Shown here in pieces: positions 14,573 through 38,287 of a stretch of 54,739 nucleotides of DNA (the first letter of the stretch is position 1; each line of letters starts with the position of its first letter). Origin of the DNA: Geobacteraceae bacterium (GTDB taxonomy: Bacteria; Desulfobacterota; Desulfuromonadia; Geobacterales; Geobacteraceae); contig WSYB01000027.1 of the NCBI GenBank assembly GCA_009773645.1, forward strand, positions 1-54,739. The letters run 5' to 3'. The translations under genes and the position numbers were made by a program. Under the pieces are notes generated by a model. It was not told where the DNA came from and ran no database searches. It was given only the letters and a program-made list of their open reading frames with translations.

Positions 14573-14983
14573 TCACAGAAATATACCCAGGCCGAGGAGA
14601 ACCTGCACCGGGTAGAGCAGGAGAATGACGATGCCGAGAACGAAATGGACCGTTCGCCACGGCGGCGCCGGTCCCTTCAGTCTGCGCGAGACGAGGAAAG
14701 AAGCGCTGATGAAGAACACCAGTGTTGTCCCCGTAAGAAAATGCGCGGGATAGTGGAATATCCGGCCGTGGTCGATCAGCGCCAGGGTCATTCCGACGAA
14801 GAAGCCGCAGATGCCCAGGGCCGCAGCGATCGGGCCTGCCTGGCGGTGCTTTTTGATAGCCGGGACGAGCGGCGTCCCGGCCAGGCGGTGCTTGCGTATC
14901 TGCAACCCGAGCCATCCCTGGCGGATGAAGAAGAGCATGACGAGGAAATTGAATGTGCCGTGCGCTAATTTTAGGTATTCCAT
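14573..14983 (-). CDS. Four-helix membrane protein, DUF4079-like
   Basis: 136 residues with four predicted transmembrane segments (about 9-27, 52-70, 82-98 and 112-135). Histidines at 8, 72, 77, 81 and 113 lie near the helix ends, an arrangement like the di-heme b561-type fold, so b-heme binding is possible but unproven. The LIDHGRIFHYPAHFLTGTT segment and length suit the DUF4079 family. The start has GAGAG seven bases upstream. It is the first gene of a likely two-gene operon with the outer-membrane barrel protein. Confidence 0.65.
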   Translation of the reverse strand: MEYLKLAHGTFNFLVMLFFIRQGWLGLQIRKHRLAGTPLVPAIKKHRQAGPIAAALGICGFFVGMTLALIDHGRIFHYPAHFLTGTTLVFFISASFLVSRRLKGPAPPWRTVHFVLGIVILLLYPVQVLLGLGIFL

Positions 14984-15207: not shown

Positions 15208-15558
15208 TCATGTGCTGGATAGTTCCCCTGTTAACCACTCTATTTGCTGCAACAATTCCGGCATCTTGACCGATACGACGTCCCAGATAATATCCTCATC
15301 GATACCAAAATAATCGTGTACGACGATATCACGCAATCCGGCCATTTTCTTCCATTCCACAGCCGGATATCGTCTGCGGATATCTGCCGGCACTTTCTTG
15401 GCCGCCTCACCGATAATAGCCAAATTTCGAATAACCGCGTCAACGGTTTTGGAATCGCCTAGAAACTCTTCGCGGGACATGGAACCGGCATATTCCAGCA
15501 CCCGTGATGCGCTCTCGCGGATATCCAGCAGAAAAAGGCGCCAGTTCCTCTCAGACAT
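15208..15558 (-). CDS. hepT: HepT-like HEPN (DUF86) toxin
   Basis: HEPN-domain ribonuclease toxin of type VII (HepT/MntA) toxin-antitoxin systems. The catalytic R-x4-H-x-Y motif is exact in RDIVVHDY. In characterised members the antitoxin adds AMP groups to that Tyr to silence the toxin. Length (116 aa from MSERNWRL) is normal. The frame is open to 15618, but MSERNWRL has a GTGAGG site, and its ATG overlaps the mntA stop by 8 bp, indicating translational coupling. A terminator follows at once. The module borders the first cassette-like region. Confidence 0.88.
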   Translation of the reverse strand: MSERNWRLFLLDIRESASRVLEYAGSMSREEFLGDSKTVDAVIRNLAIIGEAAKKVPADIRRRYPAVEWKKMAGLRDIVVHDYFGIDEDIIWDVVSVKMPELLQQIEWLTGELSST

Positions 15559-15856
15559 GAACCGCCTCACGTAAAATCCTGGCCTTGAGTTCTTCCCTGA
15601 CGGAGTCCTTAAGGACAAGGTCCACCTTTCCCCCTATGGCGCGACCCAGGAAAAACTTCAGCTCCATGTAGTTGTCAAATGTCTTGTGGGCCTTGTCAAG
15701 CTCCACGAGAATGTCGATGTCGCTTCGCCGCTTCTGCTGCCCCTTCGCATAGGAGCCGAACACGGCCAGATCAACCACGCCGAACCGTTCGGCCAGCCCT
15801 TCCCTGCAAGCCTTCAACACCGAAAGCAGTTCATCCCTTGTCCGCACCTTTTTCAT
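15551..15856 (-). CDS. mntA: MntA-like nucleotidyltransferase antitoxin
   Basis: A 101-residue minimal nucleotidyltransferase with the exact GS-x10-D-x-D motif (GSYAKGQQKRRSDID). MntA proteins neutralise HepT by polyadenylylating or AMPylating its active-site Tyr. It is the first gene of the operon. GGAG lies 7 bases before the ATG, and a well-spaced promoter is 31 bp upstream. Antitoxin first and toxin second, with overlapping reading frames, is the usual order. Confidence 0.88.
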   Translation of the reverse strand: MKKVRTRDELLSVLKACREGLAERFGVVDLAVFGSYAKGQQKRRSDIDILVELDKAHKTFDNYMELKFFLGRAIGGKVDLVLKDSVREELKARILREAVHV

Positions 15857-16073: not shown

Positions 16074-16139
16074 TCATAACGCCGGGGTGAGCGGCGGCGC
16101 AGTCTTATCGGGCCGCCCGTCACTGCCCGTTGGTTGAAA
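16074..16139 (-). other. attC-like recombination site 1 (array 1)
   Basis: Read on the minus strand, an R''-like TTTCAAC and an R'-like GTTATGA bracket a 66-bp imperfect hairpin. Its L''/L' arms are GTGACGGGCGGC and GCCGCCGCTCAC (10 of 12 positions pair) with a GC-poor loop. It sits about 50 bp after the stop of the minus-strand lipoprotein gene, as expected for an integron cassette. No integrase is in the window. Confidence 0.6.
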
Positions 16140-16818: not shown

Positions 16819-16888
16819 TGACAACGGTTTCGCCAGTAACCGGCGCGGCGGCTTTATTGCCGCGTCCGAGTGCACTGCCTAGTTGGAC
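16819..16888 (-). other. attC-like recombination site 2 (array 1)
   Basis: On the minus strand, R''-like GTCCAAC and R'-like GTTGTCA enclose a 70-bp imperfect hairpin whose apex is GCGGC-AATAAA-GCCGC with outer CAGT/ACTG pairing. Its R' heptamer is identical to that of the neighbouring site at 16964. No ORF lies between the two sites. Confidence 0.6.
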
Positions 16889-17370: not shown

Positions 17371-17520
17371 GCATTTCTGCGGTAGAAATGCCGGTTACCC
17401 GGCACCCCCCGCACAGTCCCGGACGTGCAGTTTTCCCGCATCCGTTTCCTCGGTTGCACTCGCTTCCGCGCTAGACGTAGCTTTCAAGGATATCTCCGTC
17501 GGCTGACTTCGGTTATCCGC
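17371..17520 (-). mobile_element. Group II intron-like remnant (RNA part only)
   Basis: Minus-strand sequence from GGATAACCGAAGTCAGCCGA through GGATGCGGGAAAACTGCACG to GGGTGCCGGGTAACCGGC resembles the structured RNA found just before the reverse-transcriptase ORF of bacterial group II introns. Several short hairpins are visible (17371-17378 with 17384-17391; 17391-17402). No reverse-transcriptase ORF follows, so only a fragment remains. Identification is from memory of the motif. No gene is seen in 17521-17645. Confidence 0.5.
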
Positions 17521-28580: not shown

Positions 28581-29567
28581 TCAATGTGTCAGCTCCCAGG
28601 CCTTGACCAGTTCCGACAGAGTGCGAGGCTGCATACCAATGGCAGCTTTGCCCCTTTTTTCCCATTGCGAAATGCTGGCGGCGGTTATCCCGATGCGGGA
28701 AGCAAATACAGTCTGTGTCTCACCGAGAGATGACCTCCAGGCGTATATGGCATCACCGGTGAGCGGATCGGGGAAAGGAGCCACAGCGGTCGACTTCTTG
28801 CGACCTCTTGATTTGACCGGGGCGGTTTTTGTGCGCGGCTGCCGTGCGGGGGGCAGTGTTTCAGCCATATCGATACCGAACACATCGGCAATACCGGCCG
28901 CAGCAATCCGCCGGCGGGACGTTCCCGCTTTGGCCGCATCCGTAATCGCTGCGGAGACATCAACCAGCTCTTCGTGATTCACCCCGCGCAGTTGGAACAG
29001 CATCTCCGGGGAGTGGTCGAGTCGGGCGCCCACACCGTAGAGCACTGCCGCCACATGCTTGCACATGCCGGCCCAGTCCGGACAGTTGCAGTCGAATTTC
29101 ATCTCGCCGGGGAGCGGGAAAAGACCTTCCCTGCGATGCGCAACAACCTCCATGACCCCACGGTCCAGCCTTCCGCGCAACAGATCGATCAGCGACCCGA
29201 TCCTTCCGCTGCAGGCCGACCTGACGGCATCCCATTTCTTTTTCACAAGCGGGGTGATGGTGATGGAAACGTTGTACAGCGACGATCCGCTGACAATGGC
29301 CTTGATATGGCCGCTCTGGATCTCCAGATGACAGACCGAGCCGTTTCTGACATAGCTGCGGCCGCGGGGGAGGCGATTGGCGTAATCGCTGAACGACTCC
29401 ATATGGTCGCACCACCCCTTGCCCCAGAAGGAAGCGGCGATCTTGCGGCCGGACAAAAGCACCGGCTGCACCTTGAGCCCCTTCTTTTTCATCTTTTCAA
29501 GCTGCTTCAGTGCCTTTGCCCGTCGCTCGGCAACCGGTACATACGGCGCCCATCCGTAGAAGCTCAT
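28581..29567 (-). CDS. SWIM zinc-finger protein with C-terminal Xre-type HTH
   Basis: A 328-residue protein. Residues about 157-172 form a SWIM zinc finger (FDCNCPDWAGMCKHV; C-x-C-x6-C-x-H). N-terminal WGKGWCDHMESFSDYANRLPRGR is the usual signature of SWIM proteins that partner SNF2-family helicases. The last 60 residues are a helix-turn-helix (AWRSSLGETQTVFASRIGI, ASISQWEKRGKAA). They join via a basic Ala/Pro/Lys-rich linker, making a DNA-binding fusion. A SNF2 helicase is encoded 6 kb away rather than next door. GAGGAGG lies about ten bases before the ATG. Confidence 0.8.
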   Translation of the reverse strand: MSFYGWAPYVPVAERRAKALKQLEKMKKKGLKVQPVLLSGRKIAASFWGKGWCDHMESFSDYANRLPRGRSYVRNGSVCHLEIQSGHIKAIVSGSSLYNVSITITPLVKKKWDAVRSACSGRIGSLIDLLRGRLDRGVMEVVAHRREGLFPLPGEMKFDCNCPDWAGMCKHVAAVLYGVGARLDHSPEMLFQLRGVNHEELVDVSAAITDAAKAGTSRRRIAAAGIADVFGIDMAETLPPARQPRTKTAPVKSRGRKKSTAVAPFPDPLTGDAIYAWRSSLGETQTVFASRIGITAASISQWEKRGKAAIGMQPRTLSELVKAWELTH

Positions 29568-29700: not shown

Positions 29701-30048
29701 CTATTGGCCCCCCTCCGGAAGGCGCTCCATGCTGAGAGGGTAAAAATACTGGCCGTGTGTCATGATGGAATCCTTCAGTTTTTGCTGACCAAGTTTGTCC
29801 CAATGCAGCACATCCAGTTTGAATACCAGTTCCAGTGCGTCCAGTTCATTCCAGAGCCGGGAGAATTCCTGATCGTCCATGTTCGGAGCGACCACGGCCA
29901 GATCGATGTCCGAATACGGTTTGTCCGTCCCCTTGGCGCGGGAGCCGAAGATCAGCACCTTCTCGATGTTCGGATAGCGCCTGAACACACGCACTATATC
30001 GCGATAATGACGTTCTGCCAGGCCGAATATCAGTTTGTCGTTTTCCAT
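29701..30048 (-). CDS. Nucleotidyltransferase antitoxin (HI0073-like)
   Basis: A 115-residue minimal nucleotidyltransferase with an exact GS-x10-D-x-D motif (GSRAKGTDKPYSDID). Proteins of this family act with a HEPN partner as a toxin-antitoxin-like pair. Its start overlaps the HEPN partner's stop by 19 bp. A short hairpin (29631-29650) follows about 50 bp after the stop, but it lacks a T-run. Confidence 0.85.
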   Translation of the reverse strand: MENDKLIFGLAERHYRDIVRVFRRYPNIEKVLIFGSRAKGTDKPYSDIDLAVVAPNMDDQEFSRLWNELDALELVFKLDVLHWDKLGQQKLKDSIMTHGQYFYPLSMERLPEGGQ

Positions 30049-30428
30049 TGCACGGCCTTTTGCGCGAGTTGTTGGAACAGTTGCACGCCCTGCTCGACGA
30101 CAAAGGTATAGACTTGATCGGCCAGGTCTTCATTGTAGGTGTGGCTGGTGAGATTGCGCATCTTCTGCAGATCGCTCCAGGCATTGCCATCCTCGATCAA
30201 CCCCGCCTGCAAGGCGGCCTGCATGGTTTCACGCGGCGTCTTCACAAAAATGTCTTCCTCCTCCAGCCGGAGTTTCAGCATCTTCCAGGCCAGCTCGTGT
30301 GTGAATTCAAAGCGCTGTATGACAGAATCGCGAATGTATTCGTCCTTGGGTTGTTGGGCGGCTTTTTCAAGCTGGACAAGGGCCTTGAGATAATCAGCAA
30401 TGCGCTCTTCCATGCGTTCGGTATCCAT
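30030..30428 (-). CDS. HEPN-domain partner of the nucleotidyltransferase (HI0074-like)
   Basis: A 132-residue all-alpha protein of the nucleotidyltransferase substrate-binding (HI0074) family, with the HEPN R-x4-H-x-Y motif intact (RNLTSHTY). It is a likely RNase toxin silenced by the adjacent nucleotidyltransferase. Start set at MDTERMEERI, with AGGAGG seven bases upstream; the frame is open to 30503 but that part overlaps the previous gene. Gene order (HEPN first) is reversed relative to the mntA-hepT module at 15 kb. Confidence 0.85.
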   Translation of the reverse strand: MDTERMEERIADYLKALVQLEKAAQQPKDEYIRDSVIQRFEFTHELAWKMLKLRLEEEDIFVKTPRETMQAALQAGLIEDGNAWSDLQKMRNLTSHTYNEDLADQVYTFVVEQGVQLFQQLAQKAVQWKTTN

Positions 30429-30873
30429 CGTAACCTCCTGTTGTTTTCTGCGAATTGCAGTATGGCTCGTCGATGACCAGTCCATTTTCTTCGCACCATT
30501 CAAGCAGCGCTACTCTGGTTCGTGCATTTTCAAAAGCATACCATTTATCGAGCAAATCTTTCTCTGACAGCAGTTCCTTATAGTTGCCGTATGCGCCGCG
30601 TCGCGAGAATATGGCAATCACACGGTTTGTCAGTTCAGGGCAGTGACTCCGGACAAACTCCATAACCAGAGGTTTCCCCAGTTCAAGATCATTTCTGTGC
30701 GGGATAGCGATATAATCATCGTTATCCTCCACATCATCGGGAAACTCACTATCGCCTGTGTATGCCGAAGCGAAAAAAGTCTCGCCCGTGATCCGATGAA
30801 CAACCGCGCTATGCTCGAATGGAGCGGCGCTGCTTACGAATAAAAAAGCGTCTTCTATATTTGAATAGGTCAT
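30394..30873 (-). CDS. UPF0158 family protein
   Basis: A 159-residue acidic protein of the UPF0158 family, recognised from the N-terminal layout (NIEDAFLFV...HRITGETFF), the central DDYIAIPHRNDLELGKPLVMEFV and the late ARTRVALLEWCEENGL. The family's function is unknown. The last 20 or so residues are not family-like and overlap the next gene's start by 35 bp. They may be an extension created by loss of an earlier stop. It is the gene nearest the attC-like site at 30979. Confidence 0.75.
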   Translation of the reverse strand: MTYSNIEDAFLFVSSAAPFEHSAVVHRITGETFFASAYTGDSEFPDDVEDNDDYIAIPHRNDLELGKPLVMEFVRSHCPELTNRVIAIFSRRGAYGNYKELLSEKDLLDKWYAFENARTRVALLEWCEENGLVIDEPYCNSQKTTGGYDGYRTHGRAHC

Positions 30874-30978: not shown

Positions 30979-31036
30979 TCGGAACGCCATAAGGCTGACC
31001 GGCCGTTTTTGGAGCCGGTCCTGCCGCTGGTTGAAA
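30979..31036 (-). other. attC-like recombination site 4 (array 2)
   Basis: On the minus strand, TTTCAAC and GTTCCGA bracket a 58-bp hairpin whose arms are GACCGGC and GCCGGTC around a 10-base loop. It lies about 70 bp past the stop of the 31105 membrane-protein gene. The R''-like TTTCAAC matches that of site 1 in array 1. No real gene is seen in 30874-31104; the ORF there is the site read through. Confidence 0.55.
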
Positions 31037-31104
31037 CTTCGTATTTTGCAGTGGAGGCATTATCTTATGTCGGGGTATAAACCCCTTTGGTTTGTTGTTG
31101 TAAG

Positions 31105-31830
31105 TCAAAAAGATGAATTACCTCGAATCTGACGCTTTTTCTCTTCTGGCATCTGTCTTCTCAGTTCCTCTGCTGCTTCAAGCTTTTTCTTAATGAGTAT
31201 AAGTTCTTCATCGGCCACTTTCTTTAAATATTCGTATCTTTCCTTGTCCGGATTCTCAGTGATTTTTGCTGCTAAGGCTTTTAATTCGCTGTCGCTACTC
31301 TTAACCGCTGAAAGTATCTCGGCATTACTTATGCCTAGCATTGTTAACGGATTTGGACCGACCTTCTCTTGAAAATCAGCAAGCATAACAGCACAGGTTG
31401 TCATGGCCCCTACCATCTGGTCATCATTTTCCAGCACTATCTCCAGTGTGATTGCATCAAGTATCTCTTCCTTTGTATAGGGCAATTCAGAAACATCTCG
31501 AATTTCTCCAGTCGGCGGGTGATTTTTGATGTACTCTCCATATTCCGAAATGATTTGTTCTCGTATTTTTGCCTTCTTTCTGTTTTTATCCGATATCACA
31601 GTCTTGGCCTTGTTTTGTAATTTTTCGGAAAGCATCAGCAAGCCAATTCCGGGAGCCAGCGTAATTATCGTCACGATATAGTTCGCCACGTTAAACGGGC
31701 TCAGGAGGTTTTGAACTCCGGAAAATCCCTCCTTCATCCAGACCCCGACGATGCCTACCAAGATCAGGAGGCAAGCCAACACCAGCCAGATATACCCGAG
31801 TACTTTGCAGGTCATTGCCCAGAACTTCAT
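31105..31830 (-). CDS. Cassette-borne membrane protein with coiled-coil tail
   Basis: Unrecognised 241-residue protein. Two membrane helices at the N-terminus (about 9-30 and 45-68) are followed by a charged, largely helical cytoplasmic domain. The last 50 residues (DEELILIKKKLEAAEELRRQ) form a coiled coil. Start chosen at MKFWAM because AGGGGG lies six bases upstream; the frame is open to 31902. AT content is higher than in the core genes. It lies between a putative attC site on its 3' side and another membrane-protein gene on its 5' side, perhaps in one two-gene cassette. Confidence 0.65.
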   Translation of the reverse strand: MKFWAMTCKVLGYIWLVLACLLILVGIVGVWMKEGFSGVQNLLSPFNVANYIVTIITLAPGIGLLMLSEKLQNKAKTVISDKNRKKAKIREQIISEYGEYIKNHPPTGEIRDVSELPYTKEEILDAITLEIVLENDDQMVGAMTTCAVMLADFQEKVGPNPLTMLGISNAEILSAVKSSDSELKALAAKITENPDKERYEYLKKVADEELILIKKKLEAAEELRRQMPEEKKRQIRGNSSF

Positions 31831-31950
31831 TTCGACCCCCTTAGCCATATCAACGGTTTCGGGGTTCACCAGCGCGGCATTTCGCCTAGTGTAACCCCTC
31901 ATTATACTGCTGTTTCGAGTTGACTAATCGGGTCCCAATATACCGGTTGG

Positions 31951-32328
31951 TCAAAACTGCTCTTCGAGCCCTCTAGATTTGTTGACGACACCAATGACTT
32001 TGTTACGGAACCATCCATTATAATAGTAGAGGTATATAAGCGCAGCTAAGTCAGCCGTTATCAATGCAACCTTCCAACCCTTGAACGCTTCGCTGGCTGA
32101 AATAACTTGCACCGCAAGAATTGAAGAAATCCCATATGCTAGATGGAGAGTGTCCCAACTTCCTTGTCCTCTCTTCACCGACGCTGTCACACCACCACGC
32201 CCAGTAATTGTTTTTCTTCCTCCTTGCCATTGTCGAAATGCAGCATAGATCAAGAAAAGGGCCAGAACAGCCTGGATGCCCAATAAAAAGATAAAATCAG
32301 ACAAGAGTAGTTGTGTTAAATCTGTCAT
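31951..32328 (-). CDS. Cassette-borne small membrane protein
   Basis: Unrecognised 125-residue protein with three predicted membrane helices (about 11-31, 65-82 and 87-105) and a basic loop (RQWQGGRKTITGRGG). Start at MTDLTQLLL has GAGG six bases upstream and lies only 28 bp from the attC-like site at 32356-32406, where a cassette start would be. No attC-like site is evident between it and the next gene. Confidence 0.65.
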   Translation of the reverse strand: MTDLTQLLLSDFIFLLGIQAVLALFLIYAAFRQWQGGRKTITGRGGVTASVKRGQGSWDTLHLAYGISSILAVQVISASEAFKGWKVALITADLAALIYLYYYNGWFRNKVIGVVNKSRGLEEQF

Positions 32329-32355
32329 TTGTAACCTCGGAGCAGGGGGGGTACG

Positions 32356-32406
32356 GTATAACGGCTGAGAGCACAGCGGGTTCACCGCTGTTGCGCTTGG
32401 TTGAAC
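32356..32406 (-). other. attC-like recombination site 5 (array 2)
   Basis: On the minus strand a perfect RYYYAAC box (GTTCAAC) and GTTATAC enclose a short hairpin with arms ACAGCGG and CCGCTGT. At 51 bp it is shorter than most attC sites. It lies 66 bp after the stop of the secreted-protein gene and just before the next gene's start. Confidence 0.55.
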
Positions 32407-32471
32407 ATTTTGTTTTCTATAACTTATTACATTTTCAGATGCGTGGGTCAATCATCGAAGGGCCTTACATC

Positions 32472-32927
32472 TTATTTGTTAATCTCAACAAGCACGTTCT
32501 TGACTATTTCATTAGTTACTTCATCTATTAAGTCAAATTGATCGAAATTTCTACCATTACTTTTTTGCCGTAGTAGTTCTTTTTTTTCTGTATTTAGTAA
32601 TTTATATTTGTAATCAATAATATAAGACACACCAAATTGAAATGGCAGAAACTTATGCTTCATCGATTCTATATCCACTTTAAGCAAGTAATCAAATTTA
32701 TCATTATCAATTCTGAGGCTTTTATCATCCAATTTTGCTAAAAGTACTTTGTTTAATTTCGAAGTAAATTGCTTTATATCAAATTCACTAGGCGTCCCAT
32801 CTAATAATATATCATCAGACGACACCGATACTGATATAGCCTTACTCTTGTTTTGCTCAGCTGAAACGTAAGTAGCAAATAGTCCCATAACCATTATGCC
32901 CACCAACAGAAAAACTCGGCATTTCAT
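32472..32927 (-). CDS. Cassette-borne secreted protein
   Basis: Unrecognised 151-residue protein with a signal peptide (VFLLVGIMVMGLFATYVSA, cleavage after SA). The mature part is rich in Lys, Asp and Asn and looks mixed alpha/beta (FDYLLKVDIESMKHKFLPF). The second ATG is used because GGAGG is eight bases before it. Base composition is strongly AT-rich compared with the core genes, as is common for integron cassettes. attC-like sites lie on both sides. Confidence 0.65.
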   Translation of the reverse strand: MKCRVFLLVGIMVMGLFATYVSAEQNKSKAISVSVSSDDILLDGTPSEFDIKQFTSKLNKVLLAKLDDKSLRIDNDKFDYLLKVDIESMKHKFLPFQFGVSYIIDYKYKLLNTEKKELLRQKSNGRNFDQFDLIDEVTNEIVKNVLVEINK

Positions 32928-32949
32928 TTGCATTTCCTCCCTTAGTTTA

Positions 32950-33023
32950 ATTCAACGGGGTGCCCCCATGACCCGCCTGCCCGGTTTTTTCGGGCGGTCG
33001 GCGTCCATGGGGCTTGTTGGAAC
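32950..33023 (-). other. attC-like recombination site 6 (array 2)
   Basis: The most convincing site. On the minus strand GTTCCAAC and a perfect GTTRRRY box (GTTGAAT) enclose a 74-bp hairpin with outer arms GCCCCATG/CATGGGGGC and inner arms GACCGCCCG/CGGGCAGGCGGGTC around an A-rich loop. It lies 54 bp after the stop of the HNH nuclease gene. Confidence 0.65.
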
Positions 33024-33076: not shown

Positions 33077-34009
33077 TTATCGTTTCCCAGGCATATAGAT
33101 TTCACGGTTGTGGTATTCGATAAACCTCGGCTCCAGATCGTGCCCATCGGCAGGATGAAGAGATGATAGGGACAATTCGCTTACACCCAGGTCGCATTCT
33201 GCGTGATGGTTTGGACAAAGGCAAATAATGTTACCCATAATATCAGGGCCGTCATGGGGGCTACCGAGCGGCCTTATATGATGCGCCTCGGCGTACCGAG
33301 AACCGTCACCAAGCACAATGGCATAGCCACAAATCTGACATTCAAAATTGTGCATGACTTTCACGCGGCGCGCCAACTCTGTGTCGCGTAGTATACGATA
33401 AGCCGTTGTGAGTACCTTCCCCGGCCCGACGTCATTGAAATCTCTTGCTTTCGCAGTTTCTGGTATTGAATTGTCGCCAAACAACTGGTCGAGTTGATCC
33501 AGGATTTCTGAATCGTCGGGGTATGCAATCAGATAGGCTTGCTTAATAGCGTCGACTTTCGTCTCATCGAGAGGGTGGAGTGTGCGCTGGACGAAGAAGC
33601 GCGTGCCGGGGACATCTGCCGGTCTCCTAATAATCCATTTTATGAGGCGGACGTGATGACGGTGCGTATGCATGTCATCCCGCATTGGATTCTCGTGAGC
33701 CGTCGGAGGTATGTATTCGCTTTCGACAATACCAATGCCCACCATCCTATTGTAACCATCGTTTGCAATGACGATGTGGGTTGGTTTGATTCCATCAACA
33801 AATCTCCAGATTATTTCCGCAGCACCTTTGCCACAACCTTTCGTCCCCTCTCCATACTCCAGCTGAAGTGCCTCTAGGACAGCACCTTCATTCTTGAATT
33901 CTCGATAATCTCTTCGCTCCAGCCAGCCAATACCAATACAGCCATGTTCAGAGAACACCTGCCAATCTTCAGCACGATTGCCGGGAGCGATTTTCCATAC
34001 TTGGGCCAT
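33077..34009 (-). CDS. HNH endonuclease with N-terminal EVE/PUA-like domain
   Basis: A 310-residue nuclease. The C-terminal HNH site has CQIC, EAHHIRPLG (about residues 239-247) and GNIICLCPNHHAECD. The N-terminal 130 residues (VWKIAPGNRAEDWQVFSEHG, GIGWLERRDYREF, MVGIGIVESEYI) look like an EVE/PUA-type modified-base reader. This layout matches known EVE-HNH modification-dependent restriction enzymes, which cut DNA carrying modified cytosine. No cognate methylase is nearby, as expected for such an enzyme. AAGGAG lies six bases before the ATG. An attC-like site follows it, so this defence gene seems to be cassette-borne. Confidence 0.75.
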   Translation of the reverse strand: MAQVWKIAPGNRAEDWQVFSEHGCIGIGWLERRDYREFKNEGAVLEALQLEYGEGTKGCGKGAAEIIWRFVDGIKPTHIVIANDGYNRMVGIGIVESEYIPPTAHENPMRDDMHTHRHHVRLIKWIIRRPADVPGTRFFVQRTLHPLDETKVDAIKQAYLIAYPDDSEILDQLDQLFGDNSIPETAKARDFNDVGPGKVLTTAYRILRDTELARRVKVMHNFECQICGYAIVLGDGSRYAEAHHIRPLGSPHDGPDIMGNIICLCPNHHAECDLGVSELSLSSLHPADGHDLEPRFIEYHNREIYMPGKR

Positions 34010-34077
34010 GTCAGTCTCCTTCGGGATCGTGTGGTGCGGCGGTATGGGAATCCCGGTATAATTGTTGCGTTCAACTC

Positions 34078-34119
34078 GTAGATCACCGGTTCACGCGCGC
34101 GCGTGAACCGGTGATCTAC
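34078..34119. repeat. 42-bp perfect palindrome without spacer
   Basis: Positions 34078-34098 are the exact reverse complement of 34099-34119 (GTAGATCACCGGTTCACGCG at the left end, an alternating CG core at the centre). On the minus strand a perfect GTTRRRY box (GTTGAAC) lies just to its left, and a GTTCCAT string lies on its right. It could therefore be the stem of a degenerate attC/attI-type site at the 5' boundary of the HNH cassette. No T-run, so not a standard terminator. Confidence 0.85.
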
Positions 34120-34241
34120 CCAAATGGAACATTTAGTCCGTGAACATGAAAAAAACTGCCGTGTCAGGCTTTGCTTTTTGGGATTTGCCGTAAAAGGTCT
34201 TCCAATGGAACTGTCAAGTCTCCAAGCAACTCCTGCCTACC

Positions 34242-35426
34242 CTACACCAGCCATGTCTTAATATCCCTGGTGAAAAACTCCTCCAGCGGAATGCCATGTG
34301 CTCCAACCAGAAGAACCCTGGCATCCGGATAACGCGCCCGGAATCGGCTCAAGCCGGTTGTTTTGCCGCTTCGGCCGCTTTTTACTTCAATTGCCCAGAC
34401 GTCGCGTCCCTGCGTGATCACATAATCAACTTCATAGTCACCATCTCGCCAGTAAGTAACGGAATATTCCACAGAATTAAGGCTGTTGCAGAGATAGGCG
34501 CCGACAGCATTTTCCACAAGTCGCCCCCACCAAATCGTATCTTCGATTGAATCGCTGAAAGAACGTGTTGAAAGGGCATTCACCAGGGCGTTGTTCCAGA
34601 GCACCAGCTTGGGACTGCTTCCCCGTTTGCGCTGAACACCGTGCGAAAAAAGCTCCAACCCGCTGGCCAGGAATGCCGATTCCAGAAGTTTCAGGTAATG
34701 AGCCAAGGTGGTGGTGTTGCCGGCATCATGCAACTGGCCGAGCATTTTGGTATAAGAAACACACTGGGCCGGCAATGTGGCAGCAAGGGCAAACAGATGC
34801 CGGAGAAGTACCGGCTTTGCAACCTTGCTCATCTGGAGTACGTCGCGGGCAAGTACAGTTTCTATCAAGGAATCAGTGATATAGCGCTTCCATGAGCTCT
34901 CGTCATTAATAAATTCGGCTGCTCCCGGATACCCGCCAAAATAAAGCCACTGTTCCAGACTCCAGCCGAATGCGTCATGGCATTCCGGAAACCCCCAGTG
35001 GGTGCAGCGGTGCAGAAAGAAACGCCCGGCAAGGCTTTCGGTCAACCCCTCCTGCATCATAAGAGCCGAAGAACCGAGAATCAGCACACGAATCTCCGGG
35101 GCGGCGGGACGGTTGTCCCACAGAAGCTTCAGTGTTTCGCTCCATCCCTTCACTTTCTGCAATTCATCGAAAATCAGAAGTACCGGCATACCGGTTGTTG
35201 TTCCCTCGGAGGCCGCCCGCCTCCAGTGGGTCTCGATCCATGCTGAATCCAGCGGCACAGGGCTGTCGGCCGTAGCATAGATGGTCGGGAAACCGATGGT
35301 CTGCTCAATCTGGCGAGCAATAGTTGTCTTGCCCACTTGACGGGGACCGATCAGTACATTGATGACCCGTGTCGGGCGGGAAAGCGTGGATAAAAGGGCT
35401 GTTTGTAATGGTCGTTGGTAGCTCAT
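34242..35426 (-). CDS. AAA ATPase with C-terminal DUF4143-type domain (third of three)
   Basis: A 394-residue P-loop ATPase: Walker A GPRQVGKTT, Walker B VLLIFDELQKVKGW, then LILGSSALMMQ. The C-terminal core DYVITQGRDVWAIEVKSGR is the nuclease-fold-like end of DUF4143 proteins. Function unknown. It shares architecture with the ATPases at 8530 and 9920. The start has only a weak AGG site. A 33-bp inverted repeat lies 35 bp upstream. Confidence 0.87.
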   Translation of the reverse strand: MSYQRPLQTALLSTLSRPTRVINVLIGPRQVGKTTIARQIEQTIGFPTIYATADSPVPLDSAWIETHWRRAASEGTTTGMPVLLIFDELQKVKGWSETLKLLWDNRPAAPEIRVLILGSSALMMQEGLTESLAGRFFLHRCTHWGFPECHDAFGWSLEQWLYFGGYPGAAEFINDESSWKRYITDSLIETVLARDVLQMSKVAKPVLLRHLFALAATLPAQCVSYTKMLGQLHDAGNTTTLAHYLKLLESAFLASGLELFSHGVQRKRGSSPKLVLWNNALVNALSTRSFSDSIEDTIWWGRLVENAVGAYLCNSLNSVEYSVTYWRDGDYEVDYVITQGRDVWAIEVKSGRSGKTTGLSRFRARYPDARVLLVGAHGIPLEEFFTRDIKTWLV

Positions 35427-35509: not shown

Positions 35510-38287
35510 TCATATCCCCGCCTTTTCCAGATCGAGCGCCACCAGCTTCAACAAGGCCTCGTCATCCATCTCGGTCAGCAGGGTCTCTCCCCCTTCCAGG
35601 AGCTCCGTCGCCAGTCCGGCCTTGGCGGCGATCAAGGCATCGATCTTCTCTTCCACCGTCCCCTTGCAGACGAACTTGTGCACCATGACGTTCTTTTTCT
35701 GACCGATGCGGAAGGCGCGGTCGGTGGCCTGATTCTCCACTGCCGGGTTCCACCAGCGGTCAAAATGGATGACATGGCTGGCGGCGGTCAGATTGAGGCC
35801 GGAGCCGCCGGCCTTGAGCGAGAGGACGAAGAAAGGCGGTCCGTCCTCATGCTGGAAGCGGTCTACCAGTTTTTTCCGCTCCGCCACAGGTGTGCCGCCA
35901 TGCAGCACCAGGCCGGGACGGCCGAACAGCGTGGCAAGGAAGGCGGCCAGCGGCGCGGTCATCTCCCGGAACTGGGTAAAGATCAGCACCTTTTCCTGGC
36001 GCGAGGCGATCTCTTCGGCCAGTTCCCGCAGGCGCACAAACTTGCCGCTCCGCTCCTCGGCGTAGTCGCCGTCACCCAGGGCCTGACCGGGATGGTTGCA
36101 GATCTGCTTGAACCGCATCAGCGCTGAAAGGATCAGCCCCCTCCGTTTCATCCCCTCCTGCTGCTCCCCGAGCGCCTCGGCAAGGTTCTTGACCGCCTGG
36201 CCGTAAAGCCGGGCCTGCGCCTTGCTGAGGCCGCACCAGGCAGCCATCTCGACCTTGTCGGGAAGATCGCTGATGACGCTCCGGTCGGTTTTGAGGCGGC
36301 GCAGGATATAGGGCTGTACCAGTGTGCGTAACGGGGCATACGATGGCGGCTCGCGGTTTTCGAGCGAGGTGACGAATTGCTTGAACCGGGGTGCGGAGCC
36401 GAGCAGACCCGGACAGATGAAATCGAACAGCGACCAGAGATCGGACAGCCGGTTTTCCAACGGCGTGCCGGTCATGGCGATGCGCGCCCTTCCTTTAAGG
36501 GTCTTGGCCGCTTTGGCCTGCTGCGTGCCGGGGTTTTTTATGGCCTGGGCCTCATCAAGCACGATCAGGTTCCAGGATAGCTTTCCGAGCCACTCCTGGC
36601 GCTGAAGCATGCCGTAGGTGATCAGCACCGCATCGACGGAGGCCAGACAGCCTTCGGGATCAGCGGCAATGCGCTCCCGTTCTGACCGTTCCAGCTCCGA
36701 CGGATGCAGACAGACGACCGTGAGCGACGGCGCAAATCGATCCAGCTCGCTCTTCCAGTTGGACAAAAGGGAAGCCGGCAGCACCAGCAGGCTGGGGGCG
36801 GTTTTCCCGCCAGCACGCCCCTTTTGCGCCAGCAGCAGGGAGATAACCTGGATGGTCTTTCCCAGCCCCATGTCGTCGGCCAGGCAGGCGCCCAGCCCCA
36901 GTTCCGACAGAAACCAGAGCCAGTTGAGGCCGGTCTGCTGGTAGGGGCGCAGTGTCGCCTGCAACCGGTCACCAGCCTGCACGGCCGCCAGCCTGGCCGG
37001 CTCCCGCAGCCCGGCCAGCATCTCCCGCAGCCGGCCGCCAGCCTCCACAAAGGCCCAGCCGGTTTCATCCAGCGTGGGATCATTTCCGGACAGGTCACGT
37101 CGGGCACCGGCCAGAAGACGCATCCCTTCCATGAACGAAAGGCCGTCCTCCCTGGCCTCGGCTTCGACCCGTTGCCACTGCTCCAGCGCCTGGCGGAGTT
37201 TTTCGCCATCCACCTCGACCCACTCCCCCCGCAAGAGCGCAAGCCCCTCCCCGGTCGCCGTCAGCACCGCAACTTCCGCCGGTGTAAGGTCTGCACCGTC
37301 CAGGGTAAGCTGCACCCTGAAATCGAGCAGGGCCTGGGCCGAAAGGGTTTCTCCGACGTTCGAGCCGATGGCGACCTGCACACGGGGGCGGGGGCGTTTT
37401 TTCCACCAATCCGGCAGACGCACCACCAGGCCGCTCTCCTCCAGGGCAGGCACATCCTTGAGAAACGGGTAGGCCTCCTCCGGCGTCCAGGCCAGCGGGT
37501 GATAGATGTCGTTGCTCTCCAGCAGTTCCCGTACCCACTCGCAGCGGGTGCTGGCCTCGTGAACCGGCTCCAGAAGGCGCAGGAGCGCTTCACGGTTGTT
37601 GGCGCCGGCGTACTCGCGGAGCGCCTGGCTTAAGGGGAGATGCTGGGCGCGGGCGTTTTTACCCAGGCGGGGTATGTAGGTCGCCATGAAGGCGAAGGGG
37701 AATTCGGGATCCTGTTTGTTTTCGGCCAGGTGGAAACAGACCCGCCCCACCTGGCGCCAGAGCGGCGCATACTGGTGCAGAAAGCCGGCCAGTCCTTCCG
37801 CATGCCGGGCAATCGAATCCAACGCCCAGCCGTCGAGATCGGTCCAGATGGAAGCAAGAACATCGGGGGTACAGTATTCGGCACCCGGCATGGGAGGGAT
37901 GCTCAGGGTCAGAGAGGCAAGGGTTGCAGCATCGAGGGGCGGCAACGGTTCCAGCCGCTCGGCGGTTGGCTGGCTTTGACAGAGAAGGAGAAGATAGCGT
38001 GCGCCAAAATCTCGCCAGAACATCCAGGAGAGCGGCCAGTCAGGAGCGGATTTACCGCCGACCAGAGCCATAATTCCCGCGGATTGCGAATCCGCGAAAG
38101 CCCGCGCTATTTTTTCGGCTCTGAAGTGCCTGTTTTCGGGCTCATCTGCCGCTTCGCAAGCAGATGAGCCGATCATCAGCAGATGACCGGCTGGAGTGAG
38201 GGTGAGGTTCACGGCACCTATACCTGTTTGTGGATTGATCGGAATGAATGGGAAGAAATTAGTTTTACCGCAGCCGTAGAATATCAT
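35510..38287 (-). CDS. SNF2-family DEAD/DEAH-like helicase
   Basis: A 925-residue Swi2/Snf2 ATPase. The N-terminal 440 residues are a bacterial SNF2-associated region (LADDMGLGKT follows at about 472). Motif II is VLDEAQ near 580, then MTGTPLENRLSDLW. The second RecA lobe has VLIFTQFREM, LSLKAGGSGLNLTAA and ATDRAFRIGQ. Such proteins remodel nucleoprotein; the bacterial role is not well defined. No C-terminal SWIM domain is fused, and the partner-like SWIM gene is at 28581. The N-terminus is uncertain: a GTG at 38212 (VNLTLTPAGHLL) is a plausible alternative start. Confidence 0.9.
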   Translation of the reverse strand: MIFYGCGKTNFFPFIPINPQTGIGAVNLTLTPAGHLLMIGSSACEAADEPENRHFRAEKIARAFADSQSAGIMALVGGKSAPDWPLSWMFWRDFGARYLLLLCQSQPTAERLEPLPPLDAATLASLTLSIPPMPGAEYCTPDVLASIWTDLDGWALDSIARHAEGLAGFLHQYAPLWRQVGRVCFHLAENKQDPEFPFAFMATYIPRLGKNARAQHLPLSQALREYAGANNREALLRLLEPVHEASTRCEWVRELLESNDIYHPLAWTPEEAYPFLKDVPALEESGLVVRLPDWWKKRPRPRVQVAIGSNVGETLSAQALLDFRVQLTLDGADLTPAEVAVLTATGEGLALLRGEWVEVDGEKLRQALEQWQRVEAEAREDGLSFMEGMRLLAGARRDLSGNDPTLDETGWAFVEAGGRLREMLAGLREPARLAAVQAGDRLQATLRPYQQTGLNWLWFLSELGLGACLADDMGLGKTIQVISLLLAQKGRAGGKTAPSLLVLPASLLSNWKSELDRFAPSLTVVCLHPSELERSERERIAADPEGCLASVDAVLITYGMLQRQEWLGKLSWNLIVLDEAQAIKNPGTQQAKAAKTLKGRARIAMTGTPLENRLSDLWSLFDFICPGLLGSAPRFKQFVTSLENREPPSYAPLRTLVQPYILRRLKTDRSVISDLPDKVEMAAWCGLSKAQARLYGQAVKNLAEALGEQQEGMKRRGLILSALMRFKQICNHPGQALGDGDYAEERSGKFVRLRELAEEIASRQEKVLIFTQFREMTAPLAAFLATLFGRPGLVLHGGTPVAERKKLVDRFQHEDGPPFFVLSLKAGGSGLNLTAASHVIHFDRWWNPAVENQATDRAFRIGQKKNVMVHKFVCKGTVEEKIDALIAAKAGLATELLEGGETLLTEMDDEALLKLVALDLEKAGI

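Follow-up and report, generated by a model that had tools for sequence, protein, structure and literature searches.

How does a row of gene cassettes come to stand in a chromosome with no integron integrase gene nearby? We address this question for a locus of a Geobacteraceae bacterium, using a 54,739-nt stretch of DNA (GenBank assembly GCA_009773645.1, contig WSYB01000027.1, here called the window) that is one entire contig, C58, of a 4.74-Mb, 78-contig genome. From position 34074 to position 30979 the minus strand of the window carries four integron gene cassettes without an integrase, that is, a cluster of attC sites lacking integron-integrases (CALIN), and the first of these cassettes begins at a 66-nt hairpin that we call the head. 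We consider it very likely that this block is an array docked at a detached, attI-like hairpin and probably served by the integron integrase, IntI, in trans.

Integrase-less cassette arrays are common, and the origins proposed for them are the decay of integrons (PMC9024848, in its accessible text) and off-target insertion. The same text defines CALINs and says that degraded integrons have been proposed as their nature. The features of the locus discussed here point to a further origin.

Recognition of attC sites and cassettes

As training sites we took attC from arrays that lie upstream of an integrase gene in other members of the family. Aligned in register with MAFFT, 26 of them gave covariance model R1, which at E 0.05 recovered 76 sites in 15 integrase-linked loci, all 76 on the strand expected for an array. 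These 76 sites, one of them from the integrase locus of the window's own genome (L009) and none from the window, constitute model R2. Paired cells make up 91.7% of the MAFFT alignment of the 26 training sites, against 72.1% in shuffles, and 88.9% of the model-fitted alignment of 76, against 68.2%, with 203 double-change cells against 77.6; the larger alignment was fitted to the structure, and the independent 26-site alignment gives a like picture. Overall, the R2 structure exceeds shuffles in four of five covariation measures.

Six sites in the window, each on the minus strand, score above 19 bits with R2 (64.4, 42.5, 26.5, 25.7, 24.2 and 19.7 bits), and a clean gap separates them from the next best match (11.7 bits, E 1.4). 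Four of the six form the array from 34074 to 30979 (array 2), which has the following parts in order of reading:

34072..34137, minus strand: hairpin head, 66 nt; GTT core at 34075-34073, GTTGAAC at 34075-34069; 84 bits, E 3.8e-18 with model R3 (described below); DNA fold z -8.65
33077..34009, minus strand: gene of cassette 1, HNH endonuclease, 310 aa; Pfam HNH_2, E 2.6e-6
32950..33022, minus strand: attC A, ending cassette 1; R' GTTGAAT; R2 64.4 bits, E 6.7e-13; fold z -2.22
32472..32933, minus strand: gene of cassette 2, 153 aa, low GC (local GC about 0.40); no family match
32356..32406, minus strand: attC B, ending cassette 2; R'' GTTCAAC, R' GTTATAC; R2 24.2 bits, E 0.0017; fold z -2.34
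31951..32328, minus strand: gene of cassette 3, 125 aa, from an in-frame ATG at 32328
31848..31907, minus strand: attC C, degenerate, ending cassette 3; R'' GTATAAT, R' GTTGATA; R2 26.5 bits, E 0.00049; fold z -3.20
31105..31830, minus strand: gene of cassette 4, 241 aa, from an in-frame ATG at 31830
30979..31036, minus strand: attC D, ending cassette 4 and forming the right border of the array; R' GTTCCGA; R2 19.7 bits, E 0.019; fold z -1.77

The four attC sites lie within 2.0 kb, each preceded by a single gene. Sites A, B and D carry AAC and GTT in their boxes, and C carries AAT in place of AAC in R'', together with GTT. By eye, attC A is near-identical to an attC of an integrase-linked array in genome G024 (L042:3443-3515), and attC B is close to one on the integrase contig of the window's own genome (L009:13834-13884). 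Model R1 had given 69.5, 17.1 and 8.9 bits for the sites at 32950, 32356 and 30979, the last of which is not significant under R1 (E 4.4) and reaches its E value of 0.019 under R2. Since the z-scores of the single-stranded DNA folds are modest, the case for attC rests on sequence and covariation and not on hairpin strength. A scan with Rfam returned nothing at gathering level, and sub-threshold matches inside the array (HOXA11-AS1_6, GlsR5) were taken as chance. An earlier hand scan for RYYYAAC/GTTRRRY pairs with fold filters had found the second and third sites in the window; it was dropped in favour of covariance models because a looser version gave about equal numbers of wrong-strand matches in integrase-linked loci.

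The original prediction, made from the letters of the sequence, had described an array of three attC-like hairpin sites from 30979 to 33023. All three are attC sites on the minus strand at the positions given (the model places the end of the third at 33022), the boxes it quoted are correct (R'' of the middle site reads GTTCAAC and R' of the third reads GTTGAAT), and each site does follow a minus-strand gene, an HNH nuclease among them. The sites fit the paired arms of R2, and their folds are modest. The prediction overlooked the fourth attC (31848-31907) and the head; its right border stands, and its left end shifts, because the HNH gene is part of the first cassette and the array therefore spans 34074 to 30979. 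The attC model search that it proposed separated six sites from the rest of the window, and the other array that it had noted is present as a separate cluster (array 1), without a head by R3:

16819..16888, minus strand: attC of array 1; R2 42.5 bits, E 8.6e-8
16074..16139, minus strand: attC of array 1; R2 25.7 bits, E 0.00076; fold z -0.59, no better than shuffles

A profile search found no match to the integron integrase family TIGR02249 on the 54.7-kb contig, which accordingly holds no complete integron in the sense of intI beside attI and an array. The genome's single integron integrase above the family cut-off lies on another contig (C22:8921-9856; TIGR02249, 336.8 bits). It is followed by a gene for a SIR2-like/STAND protein and by two attC-like sites (L009:13834-13884, E 0.0064; 14657-14709, E 0.065). 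Applied to the entire genome, R2 yields 27 matches at E <=10, 18 of them at E <1e-4 and the majority on other contigs. Matches to R2 occur in 45 of the 48 genomes of the family (E 0.01), and an integrase at E 1e-50 in just 18, so scattered attC sites are usual in this family.

Strain comparison of the locus

Array 2 occupies a variable interval between two chromosomal genes, close to a third that also serves for comparison:

35510..38287, minus strand: SNF2 helicase, left anchor; Pfam SNF2-rel_dom, E 1.6e-65
30394..30873, minus strand: UPF0158-family gene, right flank; Pfam UPF0158, E 6.9e-8
28581..29567, minus strand: SWIM/HTH-like gene, right anchor; Pfam SWIM, 19.3 bits, below the cut-off of 19.6

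The helicase is 93-94% identical in genomes G034, G035 and G036, and the region of the SWIM gene is collinear in loci L104, L105 and L107-L109. In G002, G028 and G004 the two anchor genes adjoin with no insert, about 20 to 70 nt lying between the matches; the interval measures 6 kb in the window and holds different inserts in G034 and G035, and the contig of G036 ends inside the region and is therefore uninformative. At the left border the window, G034 and G035 share the hairpin ending ACGAGTTG, and identity is lost right after it, at G|TT. At the right border, after three different attC sites, the same three genomes share CGTTC[CT]GAG. The G034 insert contains two attC sites by R2 and a third by eye, and the UPF0158 gene adjoins it as well, with 90.5% identity over 484 nt to L104. 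The strain comparison that had been proposed thus placed natural breakpoints at GTT boxes on both sides in three genomes, and the genes do not behave as one fixed block: two relatives hold other inserts and three are empty.

The hairpin head

To characterize the head independently of the window, model R3 was built from 29 other copies. In BLAST searches (E 0.01) the head is a dispersed repeat present in 24 of the 48 family genomes; with R3 at E 1e-5 it occurs in 100 of 277 genomes of the class, representing 28 of 82 genera, with up to 15 matches in one genome (G201), a figure in which a palindromic copy may count twice. A phylum-wide draw of 395 genomes yielded seven with the head, all in the same order, and blastn did not find it in the plasmid and phage records searched. 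The window's own genome has four heads, three of which (on C58, C3 and C4) are followed by attC sites; the contig of the fourth (C8) ends 0.5 kb past the head.

A held-out set was formed from the first 40 heads by score outside the window's family, among the listed R3 matches, omitting heads that start less than 7 kb from the contig start and including 5 kb of flank on either side, or as much of it as the contig offered. Sites detected by R2 at E 0.1 lie within 5 kb in 31 of these 40 loci, at a median distance of 812 nt. All 47 are downstream of the head and on the same strand; the upstream side and the opposite strand had none. Of 13 heads in three complete genomes (G034, G009 and G023), 10 have attC sites within 5 kb downstream; in 20,000 trials of random placement such heads averaged 0.09 and never exceeded 2. 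Heads thus stand at the upstream end of cassette arrays. Conservation among the held-out copies begins at about RATAAAT and ends at GTT. The stem has about 12 pairs in the family and 19 in the window copy. Across the 29 copies, 96.2% of stem cells are paired, against 93.2% in shuffles; double-sided changes occur at three of 12 pairs and seven pairs are invariant, so that covariation support for the stem is modest. A reading of the palindrome as a LexA box was dropped because the distance between its arms ranges between 6 and 16 nt among the 35 held-out heads, out of 40, that were parsed. REP/RAYT elements and IS200/IS605-type hairpins, in which a transposase would act on the folded DNA, were further readings considered for it.

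A hairpin of this kind might be a mere transcription terminator of the upstream gene, with cassettes behind it by chance. The upstream open reading frame (ORF) is co-directional in 32 of 43 loci under a crude choice of ORF, some stop codons overlap the head, and a predicted terminator with inverted GTTRRRY boxes precedes a phage CALIN according to the accessible part of PMC9892861. A scan of window positions 33900-34400, with a G+C-rich stem followed by a T run as the terminator pattern, found no terminator-like and no promoter-like site; moreover, conservation takes in an attI core and stops at GTT, and attC sites lie only downstream of heads. We regard this explanation as very improbable. 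Our guess is that the arrangement behind a co-directional gene would suit cassette expression by read-through.

Relation to native attI sites

In the integrase-linked arrays of the family, a site such as TCTAACCGGTCAATAACGAGTTGG stands between intI and the first cassette and forms the start of the array. Over their last 17 nt the heads have a family consensus, CGGTCAATAACGAGTTG, that is identical to the attI core found in integrons of the same bacterial family that carry an integrase. When a matrix derived from the held-out heads was applied to 20 integrase-linked loci, the core scored above all 100 shuffles in 10, with the maximal score in two; in L040 it exceeded the 95th percentile of shuffles, and L047 matches by eye with one inserted base, whereas the remaining loci lack it. 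Model R3 gave seven matches in integrase-linked loci, five of them at attI sites, of which only the one in L037 (E 0.0093) is significant alone. The right end of the head therefore has the native attI core, and the head can be described as an attI-like core extended to a hairpin; as at native sites (L037, L039, L043, L045), cassettes begin at its GTT, the first cassette of array 2 included. The two forms differ in that native attI adjoins intI and has a short inverted arm or none, whereas heads have the longer stem and no adjoining intI.

The shared core is what would be expected if array 2 were left behind after loss of an integrase gene and the head were simply the old attI site. Several observations stand against such decay. 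Conservation starts sharply at the left end of the 40 held-out copies, with little shared before it (some pairs do share flanks); several copies per genome are common; the native attI sites inspected lack the long left arm; and tblastn found integrase-like matches in only 6 of 56 head-bearing loci, all below 40% identity. Decay is, in our estimation, unlikely.

Three observations concern the native sites themselves. At about 618-970, L037 has a small ORF (MKTR-L-LKPGQ-GTK...) placed between intI and attI, with a sub-threshold match to DUF5710 only; ORFs resembling it were seen by eye in L039, L040, L043 and L047, and it may be a conserved part of the integron platform of this lineage. Short direct repeats, for example TATAGGTAAC or ATGTAGATGCTTG, precede native attI in L037, L043 and L047 (by eye). 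Finally, CACGCGACTGCGTCGCGTGAACGGCC follows GTT in two loci of genome G040, L054 (about 977) and L120 (by eye); in one instance it comes after a native attI and in the other after a GTT that lies in a head's left arm, possibly representing one cassette start at two different GTTs.

Cassettes shared between heads and integrons

Borders were checked for two sets of shared sequences, among 60 listed of 96 cross-matches of at least 150 nt; many other cross-matches are flanks or overlapping copies of one locus. In the first set, a 517-nt cassette directly at head L130 (G008) is 92% identical to one in integrase-linked L043 (G018) and 73% identical in L037 (G007); the match starts at GTTG, where one side of the comparison has the head and the other an attC, and ends in attC at CGTT. 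The second is a 1047-nt cassette shared, at 93.7% identity from GTT to GTT, by a later position of head array L176 (G023) and integrase-linked L042 (G024). The same cassettes thus occur at heads and in integrase-linked arrays.

That the locus should consist of chance palindromes and coincidental boxes, with no integron system, is an idea for which the modest fold z-scores of single sites could be cited. Set against it are the six model matches with their clean gap, the strain breakpoints at GTT and the shared cassettes, and we give it virtually no weight.

Points against docking, and off-target insertion

A number of results weigh against docking at a detached attI-like hairpin or limit the case for it. 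Among the 96 cross-matches, the borders checked are those of two sets only. In the attC model, the number of pair types in the 76-site alignment does not exceed that in shuffles. At the SNF2 locus, the G035 insert has a single attC recognized by eye, and R2 reports none. The GTT is identical in 40 of 40 held-out heads, with G as the next letter in 82% and a drop in conservation thereafter, but this invariance is favoured by the way R3 is built, since its full-length matches stop at the GTT column; the border comparison of the window, G034 and G035 is independent of that construction. The held-out heads are not all independent, several coming from one genome and at least four pairs sharing their upstream flank. 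Nine of the 40 have no detected attC within 5 kb downstream (two of these, L201 and L179, are clipped by contig ends), and neither do three of the 13 heads in complete genomes, even at E 0.1. Within the window copy, the right arm GGTGATCTACGAGTTG deviates from the family core, making this copy a variant of a family that otherwise carries the attI core. The core does not exceed all shuffles in 10 of the 20 integrase-linked loci; L009 is among them, and use of the core by the genome's own integrase is therefore unproven. An integrase at E 1e-50 is present in only 11 of 23 family genomes with heads (E 1e-5). Finally, only 9 of 29 attC clusters in G034, G009 and G023 have a head, the other 20 being headless (one of them, in G034, some 13 kb from that genome's integrase), and five further complete genomes have attC sites and no head, from which it follows that heads are not needed for such arrays.

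The headless clusters, the window's array 1 among them, bear on off-target insertion, in which a non-classical GTT of the chromosome (attG) would have received the cassettes and a dedicated docking site would play no part. In E. coli, attG insertions reportedly occur at many different loci (Loot et al. 2024, as cited in the accessible part of PMC12444791). Array 2, by contrast, starts at a 66-nt element found in 100 of 277 genomes of the class, and three genomes use the same GTT at the SNF2 locus. Off-target insertion is thereby weakened for array 2, where we hold it to be highly unlikely; it is the leading account for array 1.

Proposed mechanism

For array 2 we return to docking at the head. 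Most likely, excised circular cassettes would be inserted at the G|TT of the head by an integron integrase, and cassettes would be exchanged at attC sites by the same enzyme. This integrase would act in trans, either as a resident protein (for example that encoded on C22) or as a passing one, and one chromosome would hold several docking ports. The identity of the attC sites, the array borders and insert turnover at G|TT in three genomes, the place of heads at the upstream end of arrays, the shared attI core and the shared cassettes are shown; binding and reaction of IntI at the head core, its action in trans and any role of the hairpin are inferred.

A broader reading, which we put forward tentatively and think rather doubtful, is that heads are dispersed docking ports of a many-port integron run by one integrase in trans, whose cassettes borrow host transcription. 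The attI core would here have been copied, within a hairpin, to many chromosomal places, often immediately after a host gene; with its hairpin the port would be recognizable as folded DNA, like attC, and the hairpin may also be a means of the element's own spread.

Genes of the array and its surroundings

The HNH protein of cassette 1 resembles PADLOC family PDC-S02 in its N-terminal part (residues 1-123, E 8.6e-14). Outside the family, one distant relative of its gene was found, in a Gemmataceae metagenome-assembled genome, with no attC found beside that copy; the 48 family genomes gave three short partial matches besides the gene itself, and plasmids gave 30 records, none covering 80% of the query. 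At E 0.01 the cassette 2 gene matched nothing in Pfam, NCBIfam or padloc, and neither Pfam and NCBIfam nor padloc matched the cassette 3 ORF (31951-32451). For the cassette 4 ORF (31105-31902) there is just a far sub-threshold NCBIfam match (E 0.0098), with no padloc match and, by tblastn, no plasmid match.

Immediately left of the head, and not part of a cassette, lies a further gene:

34242..35426, minus strand: AAA/DUF4143 ATPase; Pfam DUF4143, E 7e-28; padloc PDC-S01, E 2.7e-154

Genes for DUF4143-like ATPases stand directly left of several other heads as well (L104, L185 and L170, all by eye). The flanks of L104 and L185 match at 86% over 1.2 kb, and the two genomes come from different families.

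Elsewhere in the window, two nucleotidyltransferase/HEPN-like pairs (MntA/HepT-like) lie near the two arrays, at 29701-30503 and 15208-15856. Beside array 1, positions 17377-17446 give a weak group II intron match (22.9 bits, E 0.22, cut-off 40), a possible intron remnant.

Relation to known systems

Like the CALINs described in the accessible text of PMC9024848, array 2 has at least two attC sites in one orientation, one gene per attC and no integrase nearby; unlike them, it starts at a conserved hairpin, repeated across an order, with a variant attI core. The nearest precedent that we found is Shewanella prophage M16-3, in which a complete integron and a CALIN both have an attI of their own at the start (PMC9892861, accessible part). 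Its CALIN shares with array 2 an attI-type site of its own. M16-3 is nevertheless one prophage case with a Shewanella-type attI, whereas the element described here has hairpin form, recurs in over a third of the class genomes (100/277) and is often present several times per genome. The attG insertions of Loot et al. likewise place cassettes in the chromosome away from the integron, and differ from heads, which are one conserved element, in their scatter over many loci. In Xanthomonas, CALINs at recurrent chromosomal loci have been contrasted with attG insertion (PMC12444791); they resemble head arrays in their recurrent positions away from the integrase locus, and differ in that the accessible part of that source describes no shared docking element. 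Truncated attI sites can serve as cassette ends in mobile integrons (PMC12901181, accessible part). In the open-access literature searched, a body of work that most subscription papers fall outside, we came across no account of an attI hairpin that is dispersed.

Significance

An attI-like hairpin that is conserved, present in multiple copies and placed where arrays start would constitute a third route to integrase-less arrays, beside integron decay and off-target insertion. This docking route is testable, given that the port is a short sequence with a breakpoint resolved to the single base and that there are known integrases from relatives sharing the attI core. If it is correct, several sites of a chromosome can be served by a single integrase, and accessory genes would be swapped at fixed ports, here among them the gene of an HNH nuclease with partial resemblance to a candidate defence family.

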